From: an uncultured Mailhella sp.
Lineage (GTDB): Bacteria > Desulfobacterota > Desulfovibrionia > Desulfovibrionales > Desulfovibrionaceae
DNA length: 52,143 nucleotides
Assembly: GCA_944323575.1 (NCBI GenBank)
Contig: CALUTB010000007.1
Coordinates: 1 to 52,143, forward strand
Direction of reading: 5' to 3'
Part shown: one piece after another, positions 23,671 to 34,539 of the stretch
How the letters are laid out: each line of letters opens with the position of its first letter
Position numbering within the stretch: the first letter of the stretch is position 1
Program-made: the position numbers and the translations under genes
The notes under the pieces: model-generated
What the model was told of the DNA's origin: nothing
The model's input: the letters and a program-made list of their open reading frames with translations, nothing else
Databases searched by the model: none

Positions 23671-25084
23671 GGAACTCTCCCGTTGTGAAGCATACCTGAC
23701 GCATGATGGCCGACTTGTTGCACACCTCCTTCCACTCCAGAGCCGGAACGGAATCGTGAACGATTCCTGCGCCGGCCTGCCAGTACAGGCGCCCATCGCG
23801 TACCCACATGCTGCGGATGGTGATGCCCGTATCGAGATTGACGCCGTCCCTGTCGAGCCCGAGCCAGCCTATGCAGCCCGCATAGGGGCCTCTCGGACAG
23901 GATTCGGTATCGGCTATGATCTCCATGGCCCGCAGCTTGGGCGCTCCGCTCACGGTTCCGGCCGGAAACGTGGCGGCCAGCACGTCCACGGCATCCAGCC
24001 CGTCCTCAAGAAGCGCGGTGACGCGACTTGTCAGGTGCATGACATGGGAAAAACGTTCCACCATCATGAGCTTCTCGACCTCCACGCTGCCGGGTCTGGC
24101 CAGACGTCCGAGATCGTTGCGGGCAAGATCCACGAGCATCATGTGCTCCGCCCGTTCCTTGGGATCGGCCAGAAGTTCTGCAGCCAGAGCCTCGTCCTCC
24201 GCCACGCCTGCGCCGCGTCTGCGCGTTCCGGCAATGGGCGCGGAAAGAAGTCTGCCGTTCTCGCAGCGCACCATGACCTCGGGAGAAGATCCGAACAGCG
24301 TCATGCCCGGAAGACGCATGAAGAACATGTACGGCGAGGCGTTCTCGCTGCGCATGCGGCGGTACAGACTGAAGGGATCTCCGGTGAACGGCATGCTGAA
24401 CCGCACGGAGGGAACCACCTGGATGGCCTCTCCCATGCGCAGCATTTCCCGTATGTGCCCCACAGATGCCTGAAAAACGGCTTCGGACGGTTCGGCATCC
24501 ACGTCAGACTGGGCCGCAGAAGTGCCGCAGCTCCGGGCAAACGCAGCGCAGCGATCCATGTCCCTGTGACTGCCGAGACTTACCTGCGCGAGCCTGTTGT
24601 ACATATGATCGAAGAGCAGCAGCGTCCCGGGAAGGCAGAGCACGCACTCCGCATCTTCCGGCTTCATGACCGGGGCCAGCTTCGGATGAAAAAGCGACGC
24701 CATGCCGAAACCGAAATATCCGCACAATGAACGGGTGATGGGCGGCAGATCCGGAGCCTTCGGATCAGGCAGCACTTCCAGAGCGCGCATGACGGATCTC
24801 AGCCCCTCCACAAAGGGCATGCCGCTGAACCTGGAAAGTCCGGAAAGACGATCATCCCTTATGAGGCAATCAAGTTTTCCCTCACGGCACCTCAGATAGA
24901 GCGCCATGTCGCAGGCCAGCACGCTGTAGCGTCCCCATCGTCCGTCGACTTCCGCGCTTTCCAGAAGTATGCCGTCCCCTCCCCGGGCCATGTCCAGGAA
25001 AAGACTGATGGGCGTATCCATGTCCGCCGGAAGATGGCGGACATGCTGGCGTACCCGAATGGGCGATGTCCTGATTGTCGTCAT
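23651..25084 (-). CDS. trpE: Anthranilate synthase component I
   Basis: A 477-residue chorismate-utilising enzyme that forms anthranilate with TrpG. The N-terminal LLES motif (GDGILLESAEVDGRWGRYS) is the tryptophan feedback site, so the enzyme is probably inhibited by Trp. The catalytic half has PYMFFMRLPGMTLFGSSPE, PIAGTRRRG, ELLADPKERAEHMMLVDLAR, FPAGTVSGAPKLRAME and GCIGWLG. The start at 25084 lies 19 bases after the attenuator U-run; an in-frame ATG inside the terminator is not credible. First structural gene of the operon. Confidence 0.97.
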   Translation of the reverse strand: MTTIRTSPIRVRQHVRHLPADMDTPISLFLDMARGGDGILLESAEVDGRWGRYSVLACDMALYLRCREGKLDCLIRDDRLSGLSRFSGMPFVEGLRSVMRALEVLPDPKAPDLPPITRSLCGYFGFGMASLFHPKLAPVMKPEDAECVLCLPGTLLLFDHMYNRLAQVSLGSHRDMDRCAAFARSCGTSAAQSDVDAEPSEAVFQASVGHIREMLRMGEAIQVVPSVRFSMPFTGDPFSLYRRMRSENASPYMFFMRLPGMTLFGSSPEVMVRCENGRLLSAPIAGTRRRGAGVAEDEALAAELLADPKERAEHMMLVDLARNDLGRLARPGSVEVEKLMMVERFSHVMHLTSRVTALLEDGLDAVDVLAATFPAGTVSGAPKLRAMEIIADTESCPRGPYAGCIGWLGLDRDGVNLDTGITIRSMWVRDGRLYWQAGAGIVHDSVPALEWKEVCNKSAIMRQVCFTTGEFHVPAHR

Positions 25085-25102: not shown

Positions 25103-25139
25103 AAAAAAAAATGCCGTCCCCCGGAGAGGGGACGGCATT
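25103..25139 (-). terminator. trp attenuator (terminator hairpin)
   Basis: On the minus strand AATGCCGTCCCC (25139-25128) pairs perfectly with GGGGACGGCATT (25121-25110) over a 6-base loop, followed by eight Us (25110-25103). It sits between the leader peptide stop and trpE, so it is an attenuator. The competing antiterminator can be drawn: GGAGAGG (within 25197-25190, inside the leader) pairs with CCTCTCC in the left arm and loop, and after a 2x2 internal loop GCGG pairs with CCGT. Confidence 0.9.
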
Positions 25140-25170
25140 CACGTTTCCACCAGAAACAGCAACTTTTCAG

Positions 25171-25260
25171 CTACGCGTCAAGACCGCATCCTCTCCCTGA
25201 AGAAAAGATACGCCACCACCACTGACCGGCGAAGGACATGATGAAGACGGATGCGGACAT
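25171..25260 (-). CDS. trpL: trp operon leader peptide
   Basis: A 29-codon frame on the minus strand with AGGAG as ribosome-binding site. The peptide begins MSASVFIMSFAGQWWWRIF: three consecutive Trp codons (25221-25213) stand just before the antiterminator strand. This is the classical leader-peptide design: a ribosome stalled at the Trp codons when charged tRNA-Trp is short would let the antiterminator form, whereas a ribosome reaching the stop at 25171 favours the terminator. Confidence 0.92.
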   Translation of the reverse strand: MSASVFIMSFAGQWWWRIFSSGRGCGLDA

Positions 25261-25480: not shown

Positions 25481-25510
25481 TTGACAGTTTTTCCAAACCG
25501 GAGCTATGAA
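25481..25510 (+). promoter_or_regulatory. Promoter of the first aroA' gene
   Basis: Consensus -35 TTGACA (25481-25486) and TATGAA (25505-25510) with an 18-base spacer. Initiation near 25517 leaves a very short lead to the leader peptide ATG at 25531. Confidence 0.65.
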
Positions 25511-25530: not shown

Positions 25531-25629
25531 ATGTTCAGCACGTTCCGTCCCGGCTATTTTACCATCGCCAGCAGCTTCGGTTGCTGGTGCTATGCGTATT
25601 ATCCCCGGCCATGCGGCGGGCTGTGCTGA
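25531..25629 (+). CDS. Aromatic-rich leader peptide of aroA'-1
   Basis: A 32-codon frame right after the promoter, followed by a terminator and then the aldolase gene. It carries nine aromatic codons: four Phe, four Tyr and one Trp, ending in the cluster GCWCYAYYP (Tyr codons at 25591, 25597 and 25600). The only Shine-Dalgarno-like sequence is GGTTGGA. The tandem Tyr codons lie 10 bases before the antiterminator strand and the stop lies 10 bases after it, the geometry needed for attenuation. I infer control mainly by tRNA-Tyr, with Phe and Trp codons contributing. Confidence 0.7.
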   Translation: MFSTFRPGYFTIASSFGCWCYAYYPRPCGGLC

Positions 25630-25652
25630 TTTCTTCCGTCACACAGGAATAT

Positions 25653-25687
25653 AAAGCCGCAGGCATATGCAAGCCGGCGGCTTTTTT
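25653..25687 (+). terminator. Attenuator upstream of aroA'-1
   Basis: AAAGCCGC (25653-25660) pairs with GCGGCTTT (25677-25684), with an inner GGC:GCC stem, and T6 ends the structure at 25687. The alternative strand TGCGGC (25612-25617), inside the leader peptide, is complementary to GCCGCA (25656-25661) of the left arm and can form an antiterminator. The core GCCGCAGGC...CAAGCCGGCGGC is shared with the attenuator of aroA'-2. Confidence 0.8.
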
Positions 25688-25723
25688 CATAGACGCCGGA
25701 AGCCTGCAAAGAAGAGGTTTCAC

Positions 25724-26521
25724 ATGGAAGTCGGCGCTCTCAGAAGATTCAACCGCATCATCAATCCCAAAACAGGCCGCGCCATCATCGTTCCCATGGA
25801 TCACGGCATGTCCGACGGCGCTCCCCGCGGACTGAAGGACATGGTCAAGGCCATCCACGACATGGACGCGGGCATGGCAGACGCCGTGCTTCTCCACAAG
25901 GGACTCATCCACAAGGCCGATTACGAATCCCATATGCGTCTCGGCTTCATCATGCACATTTCAGCTTCCACCTGTCTGTCGCGCAGACCCAACAAGAAGA
26001 TGCTGGTCGGCGACGTGGAAGAGGCCGTACGGCTCGGTGCGGATGCCGTATCCATCCACATCAATCTCGGCGACGACGATGAAAGCATGATGATGTCCGA
26101 TGCCGGCAGGATCGCCAAGGAATGCAGCCTCTGGGGCATGCCTCTGCTCATGATGGTATATGCCCGCGGCCACGACGTGGACAGCTATGATCCGCGCAAC
26201 ATCGCCCACTGCGCCCGCGTGGGCGCGGAACTCGGCGCCGACATCGTGAAGGTTCCCTATACCGGCGATCCGGAGACCTTCGCCGACGTGGTGGAAGACT
26301 GCGGCGTTCCCGTGCTCATTGCCGGAGGCCCCAAGCTTGATTCCACGCGCAAGCTTCTGGACATGGTATACGGTTCCCTGCAGGCCGGAGGGTCCGGTCT
26401 TTCCGTGGGCCGCAACGTCTTCGAACATCCGCGTCGCGTGGCACTGCTCAAGGCTCTGCGCGCCATGGTGCACGGCAACGCCTCCGTGGAGGAAGCCCTG
26501 GAACTCATGGACGAAAAGTAG
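25724..26521 (+). CDS. 2-amino-3,7-dideoxy-D-threo-hept-6-ulosonate synthase (AroA'), paralogue 1
   Basis: A 265-residue class-I (Schiff-base) aldolase of the DhnA/FbaB fold. Conserved parts are IVPMDHGMSDGAPRGL, AVLLHKGLI, DAVSIHINLGDDDE, GMPLLMMVYARG, the Schiff-base lysine region ADIVKVPYTGDPETF, and the phosphate site GLSVGRNVFEH. In archaea (MJ0400) this enzyme makes the precursor of 3-dehydroquinate from L-aspartate semialdehyde and a deoxyhexulose phosphate; its position beside DHQ synthase II indicates that role over fructose-bisphosphate aldolase. It appears monocistronic with its own attenuator. The second copy lies 310 bases downstream. Confidence 0.85.
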   Translation: MEVGALRRFNRIINPKTGRAIIVPMDHGMSDGAPRGLKDMVKAIHDMDAGMADAVLLHKGLIHKADYESHMRLGFIMHISASTCLSRRPNKKMLVGDVEEAVRLGADAVSIHINLGDDDESMMMSDAGRIAKECSLWGMPLLMMVYARGHDVDSYDPRNIAHCARVGAELGADIVKVPYTGDPETFADVVEDCGVPVLIAGGPKLDSTRKLLDMVYGSLQAGGSGLSVGRNVFEHPRRVALLKALRAMVHGNASVEEALELMDEK

Positions 26522-26565
26522 ACGGGCAGGAACGCAAAAAGCTTCCGACTTCCGATATTTTCCTG

Positions 26566-26596
26566 TTGACAGATTTCTTTCTCTGGGATTAGTAAT
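26566..26596 (+). promoter_or_regulatory. Promoter of the second aroA' gene and the aromatic operon
   Basis: Consensus -35 TTGACA (26566-26571) with an AT-rich -10 region TAGTAAT (26590-26596), spacing 18-19. Transcription would start about 20 bases before the leader ATG at 26623. Confidence 0.55.
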
Positions 26597-26610
26597 TTTT
26601 TAAACTTTCA

Positions 26611-26724
26611 ATGGTTGTTGTCATGCATACTCTGTATTCCGCCACCGCCCAGTTTGAAACCAACGGCTTTACCTTTGGTTTCTACTTTTATTTTACCGGG
26701 TCCTGTGGTCGGAAGGATTGCTGA
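26611..26724 (+). CDS. Phe/Tyr-rich leader peptide of aroA'-2 and the aro operon
   Basis: A 33- or 37-codon frame (ATG at 26623 or in-frame at 26611) ending in TGA at 26722. It contains the run FTFGFYFYF, with six Phe and three Tyr codons in all and no Trp. No strong Shine-Dalgarno precedes it. The Phe/Tyr run ends at 26694, eight bases before the antiterminator strand 26702-26710, and the stop lies 12 bases after that strand. The layout equals that of E. coli pheL-type leaders, so sensing of charged tRNA-Phe (and Tyr) is inferred. Confidence 0.8.
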   Translation: MVVVMHTLYSATAQFETNGFTFGFYFYFTGSCGRKDC

Positions 26725-26746
26725 CAACCAGAGTTTGCAAAACTTC

Positions 26747-26780
26747 GGGCCGCAGGCGAAACAAGCCGGCGGCCCTTTTT
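26747..26780 (+). terminator. Attenuator upstream of aroA'-2
   Basis: GGGCCGC (26747-26753) pairs with GCGGCCC (26769-26775) with an inner GGC:GCC stem, then T5. The antiterminator is strong: CCTGTGGTC (26702-26710) pairs over nine contiguous positions, two of them G-U, with GGCCGCAGG (26748-26756) of the left arm. The terminator core is nearly identical to that before aroA'-1, which points to duplication of gene plus leader. Confidence 0.85.
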
Positions 26781-26830: not shown

Positions 26831-27634
26831 ATGGAACTCGGCACCAAGAAAAGACTGACCCGCATCTTCAATCCCGACACCAACCGCACCATCATCGTTC
26901 CCATGGATCACGGCATGACCATCGGTGCTCCCGACGGACTGGTGGACATCCGCAAGGCGGTTGACGACATGAATGAGGGCGGCGCCAACGCCGTGATCAT
27001 GCACAAGGGGCTCATCCGCGCTTCCGGTTGTGCCGACGCCAATGCCGATCTCGGCCTCATCATGCACATTACCGCCTCCACGGAACTGTGCCCCAGCGGC
27101 AACACCAAGGTACTCACCGGATCGGTGGAGGAAGCCATCCGTCTCGGTGCGGACGCCGTCTCCATCCACATCAACCTCGGCGACGCCAACGAACGCGAAA
27201 TGCTCTACAACGCGGGCGTGATTGCCGATCATTGCAACCGCTGGGGCATGCCTCTGCTCATGATGCTCTACGGCCGCGGCGGTCTCATCCGCGACAGCTT
27301 CACCACCGAAGTCGTGGCCCACTGCGCCCGCGTGGGTGCGGAACTCGGCGCCGACATCGTAAAGGTCTCCTACACCGGCAGTCCCGAGTCCTTCCATCGC
27401 GTCACCGCATGCTGCTGCGCTCCCGTAGTCATCGCCGGCGGCGAACGCATCGACTCCACGCGCAAGCTGCTGCAGATGGTCTATGACTCCCTGCAGGCCG
27501 GAGGCGCCGGCCTTTCCATCGGCCGCAACGTGTTCGAGCATCCCCGCCGTGTGAACCTCATGCGCGCCATGAACGCCATCGTGCACTCGAATGCCTCCGT
27601 AGACGACGCCATGGCTCTCGTCGGCGAAGACTAG
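26831..27634 (+). CDS. 2-amino-3,7-dideoxy-D-threo-hept-6-ulosonate synthase (AroA'), paralogue 2
   Basis: A 267-residue paralogue of the preceding aldolase, with IVPMDHGMTIGAPDGL, AVIMHKGLI, DAVSIHINLGDANE, GMPLLMMLYGRG, the Schiff-base lysine region ADIVKVSYTGSPESF, GERIDSTRKLLQMVYDSLQ and GLSIGRNVFEH. It is 16 bases upstream of DHQ synthase II and thus first gene of the aromatic operon. A short cysteine run (TACCCAP) replaces EDCGVP of paralogue 1. The copies are full length with all motifs, so both are expected to be active isozymes under different attenuators. Confidence 0.87.
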   Translation: MELGTKKRLTRIFNPDTNRTIIVPMDHGMTIGAPDGLVDIRKAVDDMNEGGANAVIMHKGLIRASGCADANADLGLIMHITASTELCPSGNTKVLTGSVEEAIRLGADAVSIHINLGDANEREMLYNAGVIADHCNRWGMPLLMMLYGRGGLIRDSFTTEVVAHCARVGAELGADIVKVSYTGSPESFHRVTACCCAPVVIAGGERIDSTRKLLQMVYDSLQAGGAGLSIGRNVFEHPRRVNLMRAMNAIVHSNASVDDAMALVGED

Positions 27635-27650: not shown

Positions 27651-28619
27651 ATGAACATCTATTTCAAGAGCGTGCCCTTCAGCAAAAACGACGTGACTCT
27701 GGCGCTGGAATCCGGTGTGGACGGCGTCATCGTTCCTGCCGACAAAGTTGATTCCGTTGCCGTACTGTCCCGGATTCCCGTTCTGGCGGAAAAAGACATG
27801 CCATCCTGCACCATGAATGCCAAGGCCGACGAGGAAGCCATCCGCGACAGTCTCCGGGCGGGCAGACAAGTGACGCTGGCCCGGGGCTGGGAAGTCATTC
27901 CTGTGGAAAACCTTCTTGCTCAGTGCGACAACGTCGTCGCCGAAGCAGGCAGTCTGGAGGAAGCCGTTCTGGCGTCCGGCATTCTGCAGCGCGGGGTGCA
28001 GGGCATCGTGGTGCTGCCCGAAGCCATCGGCGACCTCAAGGAAATCATCGCACGCTGCAAGATCAGCCGCGAACATGAAGAGCTTCAGGAAGCCGTGATC
28101 ACCCGCGTGGAACCTGCGGGACTCGGACACCGCGTATGCATCGACACCATGTCCATGCTGCATTGCGGTCAGGGCATGCTGGTGGGAAATTCCAGCGCAT
28201 TCACCTTTCTCGTCCATGCGGAGACCGAACACAACGAATATGTGGCCTCCCGTCCCTTCCGCGTGAACGCCGGTGCGGTGCACGCCTACATCCGCCTGCC
28301 CGGAGACACTACGACCTATCTTTCGGAAGTGGTTTCCGGCACACAGATGCTGGTGGTGGATCACACGGGCGCGACCAGTCTCGCCACGGCGGGAAGGGTC
28401 AAGATCGAAGTGCGTCCCATGCTCCTTGTGGAAGCAAAGATCGGCGACAAGACGGGAGCGGTGTTTCTTCAGAACGCCGAAACCATCCGTCTCACCGCGC
28501 CTGACGGCACACCCGTAAGCGTAGTTTCGCTGAAACCCGGCGACAAGGTGCTCTGCCGCACCGATGAGGCCGGACGCCACTTCGGCATGCGCATCAAGGA
28601 AGACATTCAGGAGAAATAG
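27651..28619 (+). CDS. 3-dehydroquinate synthase II (archaeal type)
   Basis: A 322-residue enzyme of the MJ1249 family, unrelated to AroB, which oxidatively deaminates and cyclises the AroA' product to 3-dehydroquinate with NAD. Family hallmarks are VDGVIVPADKVD near the N-terminus, RVCIDTMSMLHCGQGMLVGN, SSAFTFLVHAET, RPFRVNAGAVHAYI, TYLSEVVSGTQMLVVDH and the C-terminal KPGDKVLCRTDEAGRHFGM. No classical AroB or DAHP synthase gene is in the window. Three bases separate it from pheA. It confirms that the cell uses the aspartate-semialdehyde entry to the shikimate pathway. Confidence 0.92.
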   Translation: MNIYFKSVPFSKNDVTLALESGVDGVIVPADKVDSVAVLSRIPVLAEKDMPSCTMNAKADEEAIRDSLRAGRQVTLARGWEVIPVENLLAQCDNVVAEAGSLEEAVLASGILQRGVQGIVVLPEAIGDLKEIIARCKISREHEELQEAVITRVEPAGLGHRVCIDTMSMLHCGQGMLVGNSSAFTFLVHAETEHNEYVASRPFRVNAGAVHAYIRLPGDTTTYLSEVVSGTQMLVVDHTGATSLATAGRVKIEVRPMLLVEAKIGDKTGAVFLQNAETIRLTAPDGTPVSVVSLKPGDKVLCRTDEAGRHFGMRIKEDIQEK

Positions 28620-28622
28620 ATC

Positions 28623-29762
28623 ATGGCTGAGCCTTTCCAGATTCCCGGTCTCACAGAACTGCGCGAACAGATAGACGACGTGGACTCCCGTCTGCTGGAA
28701 CTCATGAACCGGCGTGCCAGCCTCAGCGTGGCCGTGGGGGAAGCAAAGAAACAGGTTTCGGGCAAAGTCTTCGATCCGGCCAGAGAGGCCCGTCTTCTGG
28801 AAAGGCTCGCCGAGCGCAATACAGGGCCGCTGAAGAAAGAGCACATCGCGGCCATATGGCGCGCCATACTCTCCGCTTCACGCGCCCTTCAGAAGCCGTG
28901 CACCGCAGCCTATCTCGGTCCGGAAGGAACCTTTTCCTACTTCGCTGCCAGAGACTTCCTCGGCGAGTCCATGGCCTTCGTGCCCTGCCGTGATTTCAAC
29001 GAAATCTTCCGCGGCATCAGCCTCGAAGAATTCGACATGGGCGTCATTCCCCTGGAAAACTCCATACACGGCACCATCACGCAGAGCTTCGATCTGTTCT
29101 CCCAGTATCAGGTAAGCATACAGGCAGAGTTCTACTCCCGCATCTCCAACAGTCTTCTCAGCCGGGAAACGATGCTGGAGGACGTCAAGACCGTCTATTC
29201 CCATCCCCAGCCTCTTGGCCAGTGTGCCTCCTGGCTGCGCGCCCATCTTCCCGCCGCCAGACTCGTGTCCGTGGAATCCACGGCCGCAGCCGCATGGAAG
29301 GCGGCAGACGAAAAAGGCGCAGCATCCATAGGACACCGCAGCATGGCGGAAAAACTCGGCATGCACGCTCTTGCCGACAACATTCAGGACGATGCCTCCA
29401 ACTGGACACGCTTCGTGCTCGTCCGTCCCGGGGATGCTCCTGCCGGAGGAGGCCATCCGGAAGAGCCTGGCCGCTTCAAGTCTTCCCTGCTCTTCACTGT
29501 TCCCAACAGAGCCGGAACGCTCAGCGACGTTTTGAACGTCTTCTCAGCTCATGGCGTGAACATGACAAAACTGGAATCACGTCCCATGAAGGGCAGCTGC
29601 TGGGACTACATCTTCTTTGCCGACGTGGAATGTGATCTCTCCTCTTCCGACAGAGCAGAACTCATCCGCGACCTCGGCGCATACTGCACCTCCGTGCGCG
29701 TTCTCGGATGCTACCCCGAAGGGCCGCGCCTCGACTCCACCGTCAACACTACAGGTTTCTGA
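28623..29762 (+). CDS. pheA: Chorismate mutase / prephenate dehydratase (P-protein)
   Basis: A 379-residue bifunctional enzyme of phenylalanine synthesis. Residues about 8-92 are an AroQ chorismate mutase (LREQIDDVDSRLLELMNRRA, VFDPAREARLLERL). The prephenate dehydratase domain (about 98-275) has AYLGPEGTFSYFAA, GVIPLENSIHGTITQSFDL, SHPQPLGQC and the catalytic-Thr motif NWTRFVLV. An ACT domain follows (about 290-365) with NRAGTLSDVL and the Phe-binding ESRP motif, so feedback inhibition by Phe is expected. It precedes aroA by three bases. Confidence 0.96.
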   Translation: MAEPFQIPGLTELREQIDDVDSRLLELMNRRASLSVAVGEAKKQVSGKVFDPAREARLLERLAERNTGPLKKEHIAAIWRAILSASRALQKPCTAAYLGPEGTFSYFAARDFLGESMAFVPCRDFNEIFRGISLEEFDMGVIPLENSIHGTITQSFDLFSQYQVSIQAEFYSRISNSLLSRETMLEDVKTVYSHPQPLGQCASWLRAHLPAARLVSVESTAAAAWKAADEKGAASIGHRSMAEKLGMHALADNIQDDASNWTRFVLVRPGDAPAGGGHPEEPGRFKSSLLFTVPNRAGTLSDVLNVFSAHGVNMTKLESRPMKGSCWDYIFFADVECDLSSSDRAELIRDLGAYCTSVRVLGCYPEGPRLDSTVNTTGF

Positions 29763-29765
29763 TTC

Positions 29766-31085
29766 ATGATCACGCTCCAAGCCCCCGCTTCAAAATCCGT
29801 CTCCCATCGAACCCTCATCGCCGCCGCCCTGGCACACGGGTCCTCGCAGGTGCATCACGTACTCTCAAGTGCCGATCTGGAACGCACGCGCGGCATTCTC
29901 CATGCCGCCGGAGCCGTGCTGAAGGACCTGGGGGACGGCAGCTGGAGCGTACAGGGCATGGAGCACGGACCTGTCGGGGGGACGAAGAATGCGCTCGACT
30001 GTCAGGTGGGAGAATCCGGCACGACCTGCCGTCTGCTTACTGCAGTTCTCGCCGCCGGACACGGTTCCTTCCGCGTTCACGGAGTGGAAAGAATGCACGA
30101 GCGTCCCATAGGAGCCCTGACGACGGCCCTTCAGACACTCGGAGTACGCATCGACTTCGAGAACAAAAACGGATATCCGCCTCTTGTCATTCATACCGAC
30201 GGGCTTGCCGGAGGCGATGCGGAGCTGAGCATGGACGAATCGAGTCAATATCTTTCCGGCCTGCTGCTCGCCGCTCCGCTCGCACGACGTTCCACGCGGA
30301 TCTCCCTCGTAGGCAGGAAGGCGGTATCCTGGCCCTATGTGGGACTGACTCTTCAGGTCCTGGAAGATTTCGGCATCGACTTCACCGTTGAAGTTCAGGA
30401 AGACGAACTCTGGAAGAGCGTCCCCTGGAGGAGCGTGACCAAAGCCATACCCGGGCATCTTCGCATCACCGTGCGCCCCGGCAGCTACAGAAGCGGCGAC
30501 TACAGGGTGGAAGGCGACTGGTCCGGAGCCTCCTATCTGCTTGCGGCCGGAGCCGTAGGGCGGGAACCGGTTCTGGTTACGGGACTTCGTTCCGACTCCC
30601 TGCAGGGCGACCGCGCCATTCTGGATATTCTCCGGAACATGGGAGCCTCCGTCGAACTCCGGAAAGACGGTATTCTGGTCAGCCCCTCGTCTCTCCACGG
30701 CATCACCGTGGACATGGGGGCCTGTCCCGACCTTGTTCCCACCGTGGCCATGATTGCCGCCTCCGCCTCCGGCGAAACCCGCATCACCAACATTGCCCAT
30801 CTGCGCATCAAGGAATGCGACCGCCTTTCCGCCTGTGCCACGTCCCTGTCACTTATCGGCGTCGGAGCGGAAGAAGGGCCGGACCATCTCACGATTCACG
30901 GTATGTTCCCGCAGGTTCCCGCCATACCCGAAGGCACGGTCTTTCCCACATGGAACGATCATCGAATGGCCATGTCCGTCTCCCTGCTCGGTCTTGCCCG
31001 CGGTCAGCGCGTACTCGTGGACGATCCCGCCGTGGTGCGCAAGTCCTTTCCCGATTTCTGGAATGTATGGAGCGCTCTTGTATGA
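29766..31085 (+). CDS. aroA: 3-phosphoshikimate 1-carboxyvinyltransferase (EPSP synthase)
   Basis: A 439-residue two-domain enzyme that joins shikimate 3-phosphate and phosphoenolpyruvate. Motifs: PASKSVSHRTLIAAAL at the N-terminus, GESGTTCRLLTAVL, ERPIGALTTAL, DESSQYLSGLLLAAPLA, DLVPTVAMIAA with the catalytic Asp, LRIKECDRLSA and WNDHRMAMS. The first motif has PASKS where class I enzymes have PGSKS, an Ala at the glycine position near the glyphosate pocket. It overlaps tyrA by four bases. Confidence 0.95.
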   Translation: MITLQAPASKSVSHRTLIAAALAHGSSQVHHVLSSADLERTRGILHAAGAVLKDLGDGSWSVQGMEHGPVGGTKNALDCQVGESGTTCRLLTAVLAAGHGSFRVHGVERMHERPIGALTTALQTLGVRIDFENKNGYPPLVIHTDGLAGGDAELSMDESSQYLSGLLLAAPLARRSTRISLVGRKAVSWPYVGLTLQVLEDFGIDFTVEVQEDELWKSVPWRSVTKAIPGHLRITVRPGSYRSGDYRVEGDWSGASYLLAAGAVGREPVLVTGLRSDSLQGDRAILDILRNMGASVELRKDGILVSPSSLHGITVDMGACPDLVPTVAMIAASASGETRITNIAHLRIKECDRLSACATSLSLIGVGAEEGPDHLTIHGMFPQVPAIPEGTVFPTWNDHRMAMSVSLLGLARGQRVLVDDPAVVRKSFPDFWNVWSALV

Positions 31086-31918
31086 GCGAGCGCATCGTCA
31101 TCGTCGGCTGTCGCGGACGCATGGGTTCCATGCTCATGGAGCGTTTCCGTCATGAGTCCGGAATATCACCCGCAGGCATCGACATTCCCTTTGAAAACGG
31201 CACCGTTGCGGAAGCATGCCGGGGGGCACGCATGGTGCTTCTCTGCATTCCGGCCACTGCCATTGCCGACACCATAGACATCCTGCGTCCTTTCATGTCG
31301 CCGGACACCATTCTTGCCGACATCACCTCGGTGAAGGAACTGCCCATGCAGCACATGGAAAGCCTGTGGGATGGCCCGGTGGTCGGAACGCATCCGCTTT
31401 TCGGTCCGGTTCCGGCGCAGGACCTGGAACTGCGCGTGACCATAGTACCGGGCATGAGGGCTTCAGAAGACGACATACTATTCGTGGAAGGCCTGTTTCA
31501 GGGCTTCGGCTGCGTGACATTCCGCGCCACGGCCGAAGAACACGACATCGCGGAAGCCAAGATACAGGGCATGAACTTCATTACAAGCGCGGTGTATTTC
31601 GCCATGACGGCGGAAGACCCCGCGCTTCTTCCGTACATAACGCCATCTTTTCTGAGGCGCATGAATTCCACGGAAAAACAGCTCATGGAAGACGGGGAAC
31701 TCTTCACATGGCTTTTTGAAGCCAATCCCCACAGTCAGGCCATGACGCGTCAGTACCGCAATCTGCTTTCTCTCGCCGCTGCCGGCGATATTGACCTTAT
31801 TCTGCATAAGGCAAGATGGTGGTGGATGGAAGGCGAGGACAGAAAAACCATACACGAGGAAGCCCGTAAGGTGGCCCTCCAGTCGGCCCGCATGGGGTTG
31901 AAAAAAGGACAACAATAA
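31082..31918 (+). CDS. tyrA: Prephenate dehydrogenase family protein
   Basis: A 278-residue protein with an N-terminal NAD(P)-binding fold (ERIVIVGCRGRMGSMLMERF), VLLCIPATAIADTIDIL, DITSVKELPMQHM and the signature GTHPLFGP; the catalytic His of the family lies in that last motif. The C-terminal helical half has EEHDIAEAKIQGMNF. It converts prephenate to 4-hydroxyphenylpyruvate for tyrosine. The glycine motif is GCRGRMG, with one extra-bulky residue compared with GxGxxG, which is common in this branch. Start 31082 overlaps the aroA stop (ATGA); its stop shares one base with the aroC start (TAATG). Confidence 0.9.
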   Translation: MSERIVIVGCRGRMGSMLMERFRHESGISPAGIDIPFENGTVAEACRGARMVLLCIPATAIADTIDILRPFMSPDTILADITSVKELPMQHMESLWDGPVVGTHPLFGPVPAQDLELRVTIVPGMRASEDDILFVEGLFQGFGCVTFRATAEEHDIAEAKIQGMNFITSAVYFAMTAEDPALLPYITPSFLRRMNSTEKQLMEDGELFTWLFEANPHSQAMTRQYRNLLSLAAAGDIDLILHKARWWWMEGEDRKTIHEEARKVALQSARMGLKKGQQ

Positions 31919-32976
31919 TGCGTTACAGTCTGTTCGGCGAATCCCACGGCCCGGCCATCGGCATCGTGCTGCAGGGCGTTCCTTCGGGACTTGACATCGA
32001 CACGGATTTCATCCGCAGCGAAATGGCGCGCCGCGCCCCGGGGCGCTCCCCGCTTGCCACGGCACGCAATGAAAAGGACGAAGTGCGCATTCTGAGCGGC
32101 GTGTTCGAAGGCAAGACCTGCGGCACGCCTCTTTGCGGCGTCATAGAAAATACCGACACACGCTCACGGGATTACGCCGCCACCCGCTGGCTCGCCAGAC
32201 CGGGCCATGCCGACTTCGCAGCGCACCTTCGCTATCATGGATTTGAGGACTACCGCGGCGGCGGACATTTTTCCGGACGCCTCACCGCGCCTCTGGTCTT
32301 CGCCGGAGCCGTGGCAAAGCTTGCGCTGCGGGAAAAAGGGGTGGAAGTACTGGCCCGCATCAGAAGTGCGGCGGGCATCGATGACGTTCCCCTCAATCCC
32401 GCCCGTCCCGACGTTGAGGCTCTGCGCGCGGCAGGGAAAAAAAACTTTCCCGTGATCGACGATGCACAGGGAAATGCCATGCAGGATGCCATTCTTGCGG
32501 CCCGTGCCGAGGGAGACTCCGCAGGCGGACTTATCGAATGTCTTGCTCTCGGCCTTCCCGCCGGACTCGGAAGTCCGGACTTCGATGAAAATCTCGAAAG
32601 CATCATCGCCCGCCACGTGTTTGCGGTACCGGCCGTCAAGGGACTCTCCTTCGGAGCCGGCTTCGCCCTTGCCTCCATGCGCGGAAGCGAAGCCAACGAC
32701 GTTTTTGTGCCGGGCGACACACTGCGGACCCGTACCAACAACAACGGAGGCATCAACGGAGGCATCTCCAACGGCATGCCCGTGGTCTTTACCGTGGTCA
32801 TCAAACCTACGCCTTCCATCGGAAGGGAGCAGAAAACCGTGGATATGCGGACTGGCGAAGCTGCACTGCTTACCATCACCGGCAGGCACGATCCGTGCAT
32901 TCTTTCCCGCGCCGTTCCCGTCATAGAGGCCGCCTGCGCACTGGCCGTCACGGAAATTCCGGGAGTGCTTTCATGA
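31918..32976 (+). CDS. aroC: Chorismate synthase
   Basis: A 352-residue flavin-dependent enzyme that makes chorismate from EPSP by 1,4-elimination; it needs reduced FMN. Motifs: FGESHGPAIG, RRAPGRSPLATARNEKDEV, RPGHADFAAHLRYHGFEDYR, GGGHFSGRLTAPL, NNNGGINGGISNGMPV and the C-terminal RHDPCILSRAVPVIEA. Length is typical. It overlaps tyrA by one base and aroK by four. Flavodoxin, encoded just downstream, could supply electrons for FMN reduction, which is inference. Confidence 0.97.
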   Translation: MRYSLFGESHGPAIGIVLQGVPSGLDIDTDFIRSEMARRAPGRSPLATARNEKDEVRILSGVFEGKTCGTPLCGVIENTDTRSRDYAATRWLARPGHADFAAHLRYHGFEDYRGGGHFSGRLTAPLVFAGAVAKLALREKGVEVLARIRSAAGIDDVPLNPARPDVEALRAAGKKNFPVIDDAQGNAMQDAILAARAEGDSAGGLIECLALGLPAGLGSPDFDENLESIIARHVFAVPAVKGLSFGAGFALASMRGSEANDVFVPGDTLRTRTNNNGGINGGISNGMPVVFTVVIKPTPSIGREQKTVDMRTGEAALLTITGRHDPCILSRAVPVIEAACALAVTEIPGVLS

Positions 32977-33488
32977 AAAATCTCGTGCTGATCGGCCTTT
33001 CCGGCTGCGGCAAGAGCACCATTGGAAAGCGTCTTGCCCGAAAACTCCGCATGCCGCTTCTGGACACCGACACCATGATCGAAAAAAACTCGGGACGCAC
33101 CATTCCCGATATTTTCGCCCGGGACGGTGAAGAAGGGTTCAGAACCATGGAATCAGCCTGTGCCCGGGAAGCCGCCGCATATGACGGCGCCGTCATATCC
33201 ACGGGGGGAGGCATGATCCTGCGCGGAGAGAATATGGATGCACTGTCAAAAAACGGCATCATCGTGTTCATAGACCGGCATCCTTCCCATATTCTGCGTT
33301 CCACGACACTGGGCGACCGTCCTCTCGTACAGAATGACAGAGACAGACTCTTCCGTCTGTACGCCGAACGAATCGCTCTGTATCGACGCCATGCAGATGT
33401 GACCATTCCCAATCATGGTGGTCCCCGTACCCTCAAAAGGCGCATTCTGCAGATTCTGCGTCATTACCACCGCATAGCCAGCGACTGA
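32973..33488 (+). CDS. aroK: Shikimate kinase
   Basis: A 171-residue P-loop kinase that phosphorylates shikimate with ATP. The Walker A is IGLSGCGKSTIGK (residues 7-19), the shikimate-binding DTDTMIEKNSGRTI follows (second Asp and Arg), then EEGFRTMES, ISTGGGMIL with the GGG loop, and the lid LGDRPLVQ. Start at 32973 overlaps the aroC stop. Confidence 0.95.
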   Translation: MKNLVLIGLSGCGKSTIGKRLARKLRMPLLDTDTMIEKNSGRTIPDIFARDGEEGFRTMESACAREAAAYDGAVISTGGGMILRGENMDALSKNGIIVFIDRHPSHILRSTTLGDRPLVQNDRDRLFRLYAERIALYRRHADVTIPNHGGPRTLKRRILQILRHYHRIASD

Positions 33489-33500
33489 ACCGGAGTTCCC

Positions 33501-34367
33501 ATGAGTCACTTTCTCGACGGAAAAAAACTGGCCGTCATCGGCGACCCCATAGAGCACAGTCTTTCCCCGATCATCCAGCAGGCCATGCTGGATGAACTGG
33601 GACTGGCCTGCATCTACGAACGCATTCGAGTCCCCGCGGGAACCGCCGCAGTCTGGCTTTCCGGTGCTGCGTCCATGAATCTGGCCGGATTCAACGCCAC
33701 CATGCCGCACAAGACCGATCTCGTCCCGCTCATGGACACACTCTCCGACGACGCCCGCATGTACCGCTCCGTGAACACCGTGGTCATGCGCGACGGGCGC
33801 TTTCACGGATACAATACCGACGGCGCAGGCTTTCTTCACGCTCTTCACGACGAAGGCATCCGACCTGAAGGTCGCCATGTCGTCGTATTCGGAGCCGGCG
33901 GAGCCGCCCGATCCGTCGTACTCAAGCTGACTTCCGAAGGCGTGGCATCCATCACCGTCTGCTGCCGCACCCCTTCGAAAGCTGAAGAGCTTGTCAGAAG
34001 CTCCGATCGCGTGCATGTGGCCCCTCTCGGCGGGCAAGACACGCTGAAGGCTCTGCACGGGGCAGAACTGTTCATCAACTGTACCCCTCTCGGCATGCAG
34101 GGTGTCCCTGCACAGTTCTCCGATTTCGAGTTTCTCGACGCGCTTCCGGTCTCGTCCCCGGTATGTGATCTTATCTACCGCCCGCTCAGAACCAGACTTC
34201 TGGAAGAAGCGCAAAAACGCGGTCATCAGACCGTGAACGGTCTCGGCATGCTCATCCATCAGGCCATTCTTGCTCTGGAGCAGTTTGCCTCTCAGCCGCT
34301 TGATGCCTCCCGCATGAAGGCCGCCGTTGAAAAAAGGCTTCTGCCCGTCCTCAAACAGGGCCTCTGA
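33501..34367 (+). CDS. aroE: Shikimate dehydrogenase
   Basis: A 288-residue NADP-dependent enzyme reducing 3-dehydroshikimate. It opens with GDPIEHSLSPIIQQAML (shikimate site), has NLAGFNATMPHKTDLVPLMD with the catalytic Lys, YNTDGAGFL with the Asp, the nucleotide loop VFGAGGAARSVVLKL, the phosphate-recognition segment CCRTPSKAEEL, and NCTPLGMQG. There is no fused dehydratase domain. It is the last gene of the operon. 3-dehydroquinate dehydratase, the one step missing here, must be elsewhere. Confidence 0.96.
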   Translation: MSHFLDGKKLAVIGDPIEHSLSPIIQQAMLDELGLACIYERIRVPAGTAAVWLSGAASMNLAGFNATMPHKTDLVPLMDTLSDDARMYRSVNTVVMRDGRFHGYNTDGAGFLHALHDEGIRPEGRHVVVFGAGGAARSVVLKLTSEGVASITVCCRTPSKAEELVRSSDRVHVAPLGGQDTLKALHGAELFINCTPLGMQGVPAQFSDFEFLDALPVSSPVCDLIYRPLRTRLLEEAQKRGHQTVNGLGMLIHQAILALEQFASQPLDASRMKAAVEKRLLPVLKQGL

Positions 34368-34386
34368 CAGAGACTCCGACTGCATG

Positions 34387-34424
34387 AAAAAGGAGTCGGT
34401 GGAAAACCATCGACTCCTTTTTTT
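34387..34424 (+). terminator. Intrinsic terminator of the aromatic operon
   Basis: AAAAAGGAGTCGGTGG (34387-34402) pairs with CCATCGACTCCTTTTT over an AAAA loop with one G-U pair, ending in T7 (34418-34424). Very strong. Confidence 0.92.
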
Positions 34425-34539
34425 CAGTCCATACCAATAGTATCTGCGCTTGTCATGCTCCGGCGTCAGCACTCTGAACGAACGTCCATGCACGCCGCAG
34501 GGAGAGCAGGATTCTCATCCGAAGTTCCCGCCGACACGA

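Follow-up and report, generated by a model that had tools for sequence, protein, structure and literature searches.

The window (the whole stretch of DNA analyzed here, 52,143 nucleotides) lies on contig 7 of a Mailhella (Desulfovibrionaceae) genome of 2.77 Mb. It carries two tandem genes for the archaeal-type AroA' enzyme, aroA'1 and aroA'2, which are 62% identical. A trp operon on the minus strand runs divergently from aroA'1, with the trpE start at 25084. As the original prediction had it, a promoter-like site, an aromatic ORF, an antiterminator strand, and a terminator all lie in the sequence before each paralogue. The features of the region, with the basis for each, are as follows.

25109–25140, minus strand: trp terminator hairpin, a 14-pair stem followed by a T-run, before trpE
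25171–25260, minus strand: trp leader peptide, MSASVFIMSFAGQWWWRIFSSGRGCGLDA then stop, with Trp-Trp-Trp, of the divergent trp operon
25481–25509, plus strand: promoter-like site of aroA'1, TTGACA, 17 nt, CTATGA (read by eye; kept in Mailhella copy-1 upstreams)
25531–25629, plus strand: leader peptide 1, MFSTFRPGYFTIASSFGCWCYAYYPRPCGGLC then stop (conserved in ten Mailhella-lineage loci)
25585–25602, plus strand: leader 1 control codons, Trp at 25585–25587 and Tyr at 25591–25593, 25597–25599, and 25600–25602 (directly 5' of strand 2, the placement seen family-wide)
25608–25617, plus strand: leader 1 antiterminator strand 2, GCCATGCGGC, with one bulge; partner 25656–25664 (fold, -24.2 kcal/mol)
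25653–25687, plus strand: terminator 1, hairpin 25653–25684 and T-run 25682–25687 (conserved)
25724–26521, plus strand: aroA'1, ADH synthase (P0001; TIGR01949, 330.1 bits)
26566–26594, plus strand: promoter-like site of aroA'2, TTGACA, 17 nt, TTAGTA (read by eye; kept in Mailhella copy-2 upstreams)
26623–26724, plus strand: leader peptide 2, MHTLYSATAQFETNGFTFGFYFYFTGSCGRKDC then stop (conserved in the Mailhella lineage)
26668–26694, plus strand: leader 2 control codons, FTFGFYFYF (position before the antiterminator conserved)
26702–26715, plus strand: leader 2 antiterminator strand 2, CCTGTGGTC-G-GAAG; partners 26743–26746 and 26748–26756 (covariation)
26747–26780, plus strand: terminator 2, hairpin 26747–26775 and T-run 26776–26780 (fold, covariation)
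26831–27634, plus strand: aroA'2, ADH synthase (P0002; TIGR01949, 341.7 bits)
27651–34367, plus strand: aroB', pheA, aroA, tyrA, aroC, aroK, and aroE, behind attenuator 2 (gaps of at most 25 bases, or overlaps)

Both AroA' copies scored above the curated equivalog cut-off of TIGR01949 (299.45 bits), on which the ADH synthase call is based. The putative aroB' (27651–28619), named from its position and sequence as the gene for the partner enzyme DHQ synthase II, adjoins aroA'2 here and likewise in relatives. Attenuator 2 heads eight genes, aroA'2-aroB'-pheA-aroA-tyrA-aroC-aroK-aroE, in an order identical to that of another Mailhella locus (L172); since this cluster includes pheA and tyrA, the arrangement is better described as an extra isozyme plus an operon than as two simple isozymes. 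Profile searches revealed no ordinary DAHP synthase in the genome: PF01474 gave zero matches, and the sole PF00793 match was KdsA, encoded beside kdsB. Because the genome is without a DAHP synthase, AroA' is likely the entry point to its shikimate pathway. Just past aroE, T-runs flank a strong inverted repeat (34375–34433), which is probably the bidirectional terminator of the aro cluster; an Rfam match to mir-627 at this site is due to chance.

Leader 1 contains four Phe, four Tyr, and one Trp codons, and leader 2 carries FTFGFYFYF with no Trp codon, both as originally counted. Leader 1 does not end in YAYY as had been stated; PRPCGGLC comes after this aromatic cluster. Aromatic residues make up 9 of 32 positions in leader 1 and 9 of 33 in leader 2, compared to a background of 5.9% in 15 proteins of the window. 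An ATG ORF as rich in aromatic codons as leader 1 arose in 1 of 2000 dinucleotide shuffles, and one as rich as leader 2 in 30 of 2000. The leader 1 and leader 2 regions also fold more stably than shuffled sequence (z = -5.0 and -4.8, respectively), with 0 of 200 shuffles as low in either case. An automatic promoter consensus scan at a 9/12 threshold missed both promoters; the sites were found by eye and by conservation. A contrast of synonymous and non-synonymous change in the Mailhella leader ORFs displayed no surplus of synonymous change, and we therefore claim conservation for the aromatic cluster, whose control-window codons are retained within Mailhella, and for the part engaged in RNA pairing, rather than for the whole peptide.

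The two antiterminators differ in strength. In leader 2, 13 of 14 positions pair, at -30.2 kcal/mol, when the RNA left free ahead of a stalled ribosome is folded. The leader 1 antiterminator is bulged and weaker; the energy listed for it was obtained by folding the RNA that a ribosome halted at Tyr21 would leave unoccupied. In most Mailhella species the energy of this duplex is only slightly better than that of shuffled sequences (z about -0.4 to -2.0). Complete antiterminators are found in two other copy-1 leaders, L007 and L044. Covariation support for an antiterminator that competes with the terminator is strong for leader 2 and for the family and weak for leader 1 alone, and the leader 1 antiterminator is the least secure part of the whole account.

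The element is not confined to this genome. An ATG leader with a terminator precedes 94 of the 114 Desulfovibrionaceae aroA' copies examined. Among the copies lacking it are second genes of tandem pairs and six third copies that form a leaderless clade: L118, L121, L124, L140, L148, and L099. In L118, L121, and L148 the gene is preceded by the end of a coding sequence of similar appearance. Elsewhere in the family, in other genera, single-copy aroA' genes are preceded by this element too, there with mixed clusters, for example, WYFFAYF or FYFYFYF. In other families of Thermodesulfobacteriota, about 13 of 20 sampled loci carry it, and it is also present in Desulfobacterales loci retrieved by name; the archaeal AroA' genes in the sample had none.

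Alignment of the relatives' leaders supported the central claim, that each of the two AroA' isozymes has a separate attenuator with an aromatic leader peptide: the ORFs, the position of the control codons, and both alternative helices are conserved, and the helices covary. Across 19 aligned leaders, 90.7% of antiterminator cells are paired, compared to 33–46% in slid versions, with eight two-sided changes against a shuffle mean of 2.0 (0 of 500 as high). The terminator in the same leaders is 100% paired, with seven two-sided changes against 1.3 in shuffles (0 of 500). When 89 leaders were considered, 89.8% of antiterminator cells paired in register, compared to 37–42% when slid. An internal mismatch in the terminator stem is especially informative. 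In most leaders the arm base at this position has no partner within the terminator and nevertheless varies in step with the leader base (T:A 40, C:G 23, and T:G 14; n = 89), so that conservation through the antiterminator is the sole explanation. Within Mailhella, a compensatory T:A to C:G change of this kind is present in L008 and L042.

Spacing is also regular. The gap between the last aromatic codon and the antiterminator has quartiles of 5, 5, and 6 nt (106 leaders), and the stop codon lies at quartiles of 22, 24, and 27 nt from the terminator; the 8–10 bases originally given for the former were too many, the gap being about 5–7 nt. Variable codons held at a constant distance from a fixed RNA strand are what control by ribosome stalling would predict. 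In folds representing the stage at which strand 4 is still to be transcribed, strand 2 was paired to the terminator arm in 96 of 104 leaders. With a ribosome at the stop codon the terminator alone remains foldable, and with a stalled ribosome the antiterminator forms. When all strands are present, the terminator is usually favored at equilibrium; control would therefore be kinetic, in keeping with the classical model.

The anatomy, conservation, covariation, spacing, and duplication of the elements are matters of observation. With high probability, the element before each AroA' gene is a ribosome-mediated transcription attenuator and belongs to a large Thermodesulfobacteriota family. Stalling and readthrough are inferred, as is the amino acid sensed by each leader, which is read here from its codons. 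When the leader is translated without a pause, the ribosome at the stop codon would cover strand 2, strands 3 and 4 would pair, and transcription would end. If charged tRNA matching the control codons runs low, the ribosome would stall on the aromatic cluster; strand 2 would then pair with strand 3 as it emerges, ahead of the synthesis of strand 4, no terminator would form, and the genes would be transcribed. Leader 1 (Trp-Cys-Tyr-Ala-Tyr-Tyr) would report mainly on Tyr, with some response to Trp and Phe, and govern aroA'1, the additional isozyme. Leader 2 (Phe-x-Phe-Gly-Phe-Tyr-Phe-Tyr-Phe) would report on Phe and Tyr and govern the aroA'2-to-aroE cluster, including pheA and tyrA. Transcription from promoter 1 may read through into the second unit. 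Trp would be sensed apart, by the Trp-Trp-Trp attenuator of the divergent trp operon. With its leader and terminator before trpE, the locus holds three attenuators in about 1.7 kb, which would share out Trp, Tyr, and Phe/Tyr sensing among three transcription units.

Both leaders are conserved across about ten loci of the Mailhella lineage. The terminators of the pair share GCCGCAGGC...CAAGCCGGCGGC (25656–25681 in terminator 1 and 26749–26773 in terminator 2), from which a duplication of gene plus leader had been proposed. The shared motif is real, and the duplication is supported by the gene tree, which places the two Mailhella copies as sister clades; the motif itself does not prove it, as it precedes nearly every aroA' of the family. 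The sister relationship also sets the Mailhella duplication apart from older ones. The copy-1 cluster is mostly W-C-Y-A-Y-Y across the ten loci (WYYYF in L044 and GWWYP in L007), and FGFYFYF is nearly invariant in copy 2. The expected divergence of the sensor peptides is thus found in the control windows, Trp/Tyr in copy 1 versus Phe/Tyr without Trp in copy 2, but it does not separate Tyr cleanly from Phe. The sensors overlap, with Tyr codons inside the Phe run of leader 2 and Phe and Trp codons in leader 1; since both control windows keep Tyr, specialization is partial. In two basal Mailhella-like loci, L038 and L041, aroA'2 follows straight after aroA'1 without a leader of its own (L041: 2134–3801), and L008 and L042 have no neighboring aroA'1. 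One Mailhella genome has a third, divergent AroA'-like gene (L142, G147:C13:162656), leaderless, with 50% identity and a very long branch.

Leaders with more uniform control codons were found in other genera. In many Desulfovibrionaceae, AroA' is encoded by two unlinked genes. One, with a mixed leader, heads aroA'-aroB'-pheA-aroA-tyrA, often running on into trp, and the other was solitary in all five neighborhoods checked (L174–L178). Separate paralogues have Phe-only leaders, such as AFFFSFFFFR (L122) and RFFFFFGFFFR (L157), or Tyr-only leaders, such as YAYYYYY (L107) and PYYYYG (L134), on the same RNA scaffold as the mixed ones. Further loci are L101, L120, L123, L100, L143, and L152 in the Phe-only group, and L135, L139, and L154 in the Tyr-only group. 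The control window holds a single kind of aromatic residue in 12 leaders, compared to a mean of 1.2 and a maximum of 6 when aromatic residues were exchanged among leaders in 2000 rounds. On the tree, most Phe-leader enzymes belong to two closely placed clades, and Tyr-leader enzymes are spread over a few. Among operons containing trp genes, Trp codons adjoin the antiterminator in 16 of 18; among those lacking them, in 3 of 15 (Fisher 9e-5 by rows). This match is suggestive and confounded by ancestry because just two tree transitions separate the groups.

We weighed whether the leaders are selective. One scaffold appears to have been copied repeatedly with AroA' paralogues and retuned by swapping the codon cluster, giving Phe-only, Tyr-only, and mixed Phe/Tyr/Trp versions, the last on operon heads, and in Mailhella a Tyr-biased and a Phe/Tyr version, so that each isozyme would answer a different shortage with no need of a repressor. 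We lean modestly towards this reading. A less probable one, though one to be taken seriously, is that the attenuators are real and unselective: any aromatic shortage would trigger both, and the two genes would represent an increase in dosage under redundant control. The Tyr codons near the antiterminator in both Mailhella leaders fit this possibility, as do the Phe and Trp codons of leader 1 and the mixed leaders of single-copy relatives, a state that looks ancestral. The one-residue control windows and the clustering of Phe-leader enzymes speak against it and indicate that selectivity has been selected in relatives; leader 2, moreover, has no Trp codon in a genome where trp forms a separate operon.

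Leader 1 could also be decaying, its antiterminator weakened after duplication so that aroA'1 is mostly constitutive or mostly off. The bulged helix and poor shuffle z-scores in core Mailhella species are what such decay would produce, and turnover is visible in the leaderless aroA'2 of L038 and L041 and the missing aroA'1 of L008 and L042. We consider this unlikely, as ten loci keep the ORF, Tyr cluster, and terminator of leader 1 despite clear sequence divergence, L007 and L044 have complete antiterminators, and the fold with a ribosome at Tyr21 still yields an antiterminator of -24.2 kcal/mol.

That a protein or small molecule binds the leader RNA in the manner of a riboswitch, T-box, or TRAP, the short ORF being incidental, would suit the highly conserved strand 2/3/4 RNA and a C-terminal peptide conservation (CGRK) largely due to RNA pairing, but it is very improbable, given that Rfam models, the T-box included, gave no relevant match in the window or in 12 related loci (with sub-threshold matches in relatives only), that the conserved folds seen are the alternative hairpins alone, that the aromatic codons keep a constant distance from strand 2, and that codon identity varies among Phe-only, Tyr-only, and mixed leaders on an unchanged scaffold.

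Returning to attenuation by a stalled ribosome, the closest models are the E. coli trp and pheA attenuators, in which antiterminator and terminator are mutually exclusive and a ribosome at the stop codon masks strand 2. The elements described here are alike in their control-codon ORF, exclusive hairpins, and masking of strand 2. They differ in their target, an archaeal-type AroA' missing from E. coli, and in combining mixed and single-residue sensors on one scaffold that has no Rfam match. E. coli AroF, AroG, and AroH likewise form a set of first-shikimate-step isozymes tuned to different aromatic amino acids; they are controlled by TyrR/TrpR repression and feedback inhibition, and the enzyme is unrelated to AroA'. 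The parallel with such amino acid-specific DAHP synthases, originally drawn for this locus, fits better in the genera with Phe-only and Tyr-only leaders; judged by codon make-up, Mailhella would match an amino acid-specific isozyme set only in part.

Separate leader peptides on isozymes of one biosynthetic step are also known from the E. coli acetohydroxyacid synthase operons ilvGMEDA and ilvBN, each with its own leader peptide (PMC6123439). Those belong to the branched-chain pathway, whereas the paralogues here share one attenuator scaffold and differ in their aromatic codons. In Acholeplasma, the uORFC-13-1 motif places a Phe-coding uORF and then a terminator before aroF (PMC8632094), similarly ahead of the first shikimate enzyme; it belongs to another phylum and an ordinary DAHP synthase gene, and paralogue-specific sensors are not described for it. 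For leader-peptide attenuators of amino acid operons in general, a possible gamma-proteobacterial origin with few transfers has been suggested (PMC3766115).

The original statement that no description of this arrangement was known was too strong. PMC1173090 (2005), which also covers the TyrR regulon, includes in Table 7 a putative attenuator before the D. vulgaris operon aroA'>aroB'>pheA>aroA>tyrA>[trp], based on database-predicted terminator/antiterminator structures. This entry corresponds to the attenuator before a relative's operon-head aroA'; leader peptide, sensing residue, paralogue, and duplication are not given in it. Further leaders of this family may already have been predicted earlier. 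In the open-access literature we found no description of aromatic leader peptides on AroA' paralogues or of their retuning. The attenuation mechanism is known; within that literature, the AroA' target and the variation of the sensor are apparently new. As a family-wide pattern, AroA' paralogues with predicted Phe-only or Tyr-only sensors, mixed ones on operon heads, and Trp codons where trp follows also seem to be new.

These findings describe a deeply conserved attenuator family in Thermodesulfobacteriota, acting on the archaeal-type enzyme at the entry to the shikimate pathway. Its natural variants differ in their sensing codons only, with spacing and pairing fixed, and so provide a series for relating codon identity and position to attenuator specificity. 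They offer a regulatory reading of why these bacteria retain several AroA' copies, and the leaders could serve to predict the amino acid served by each isozyme.
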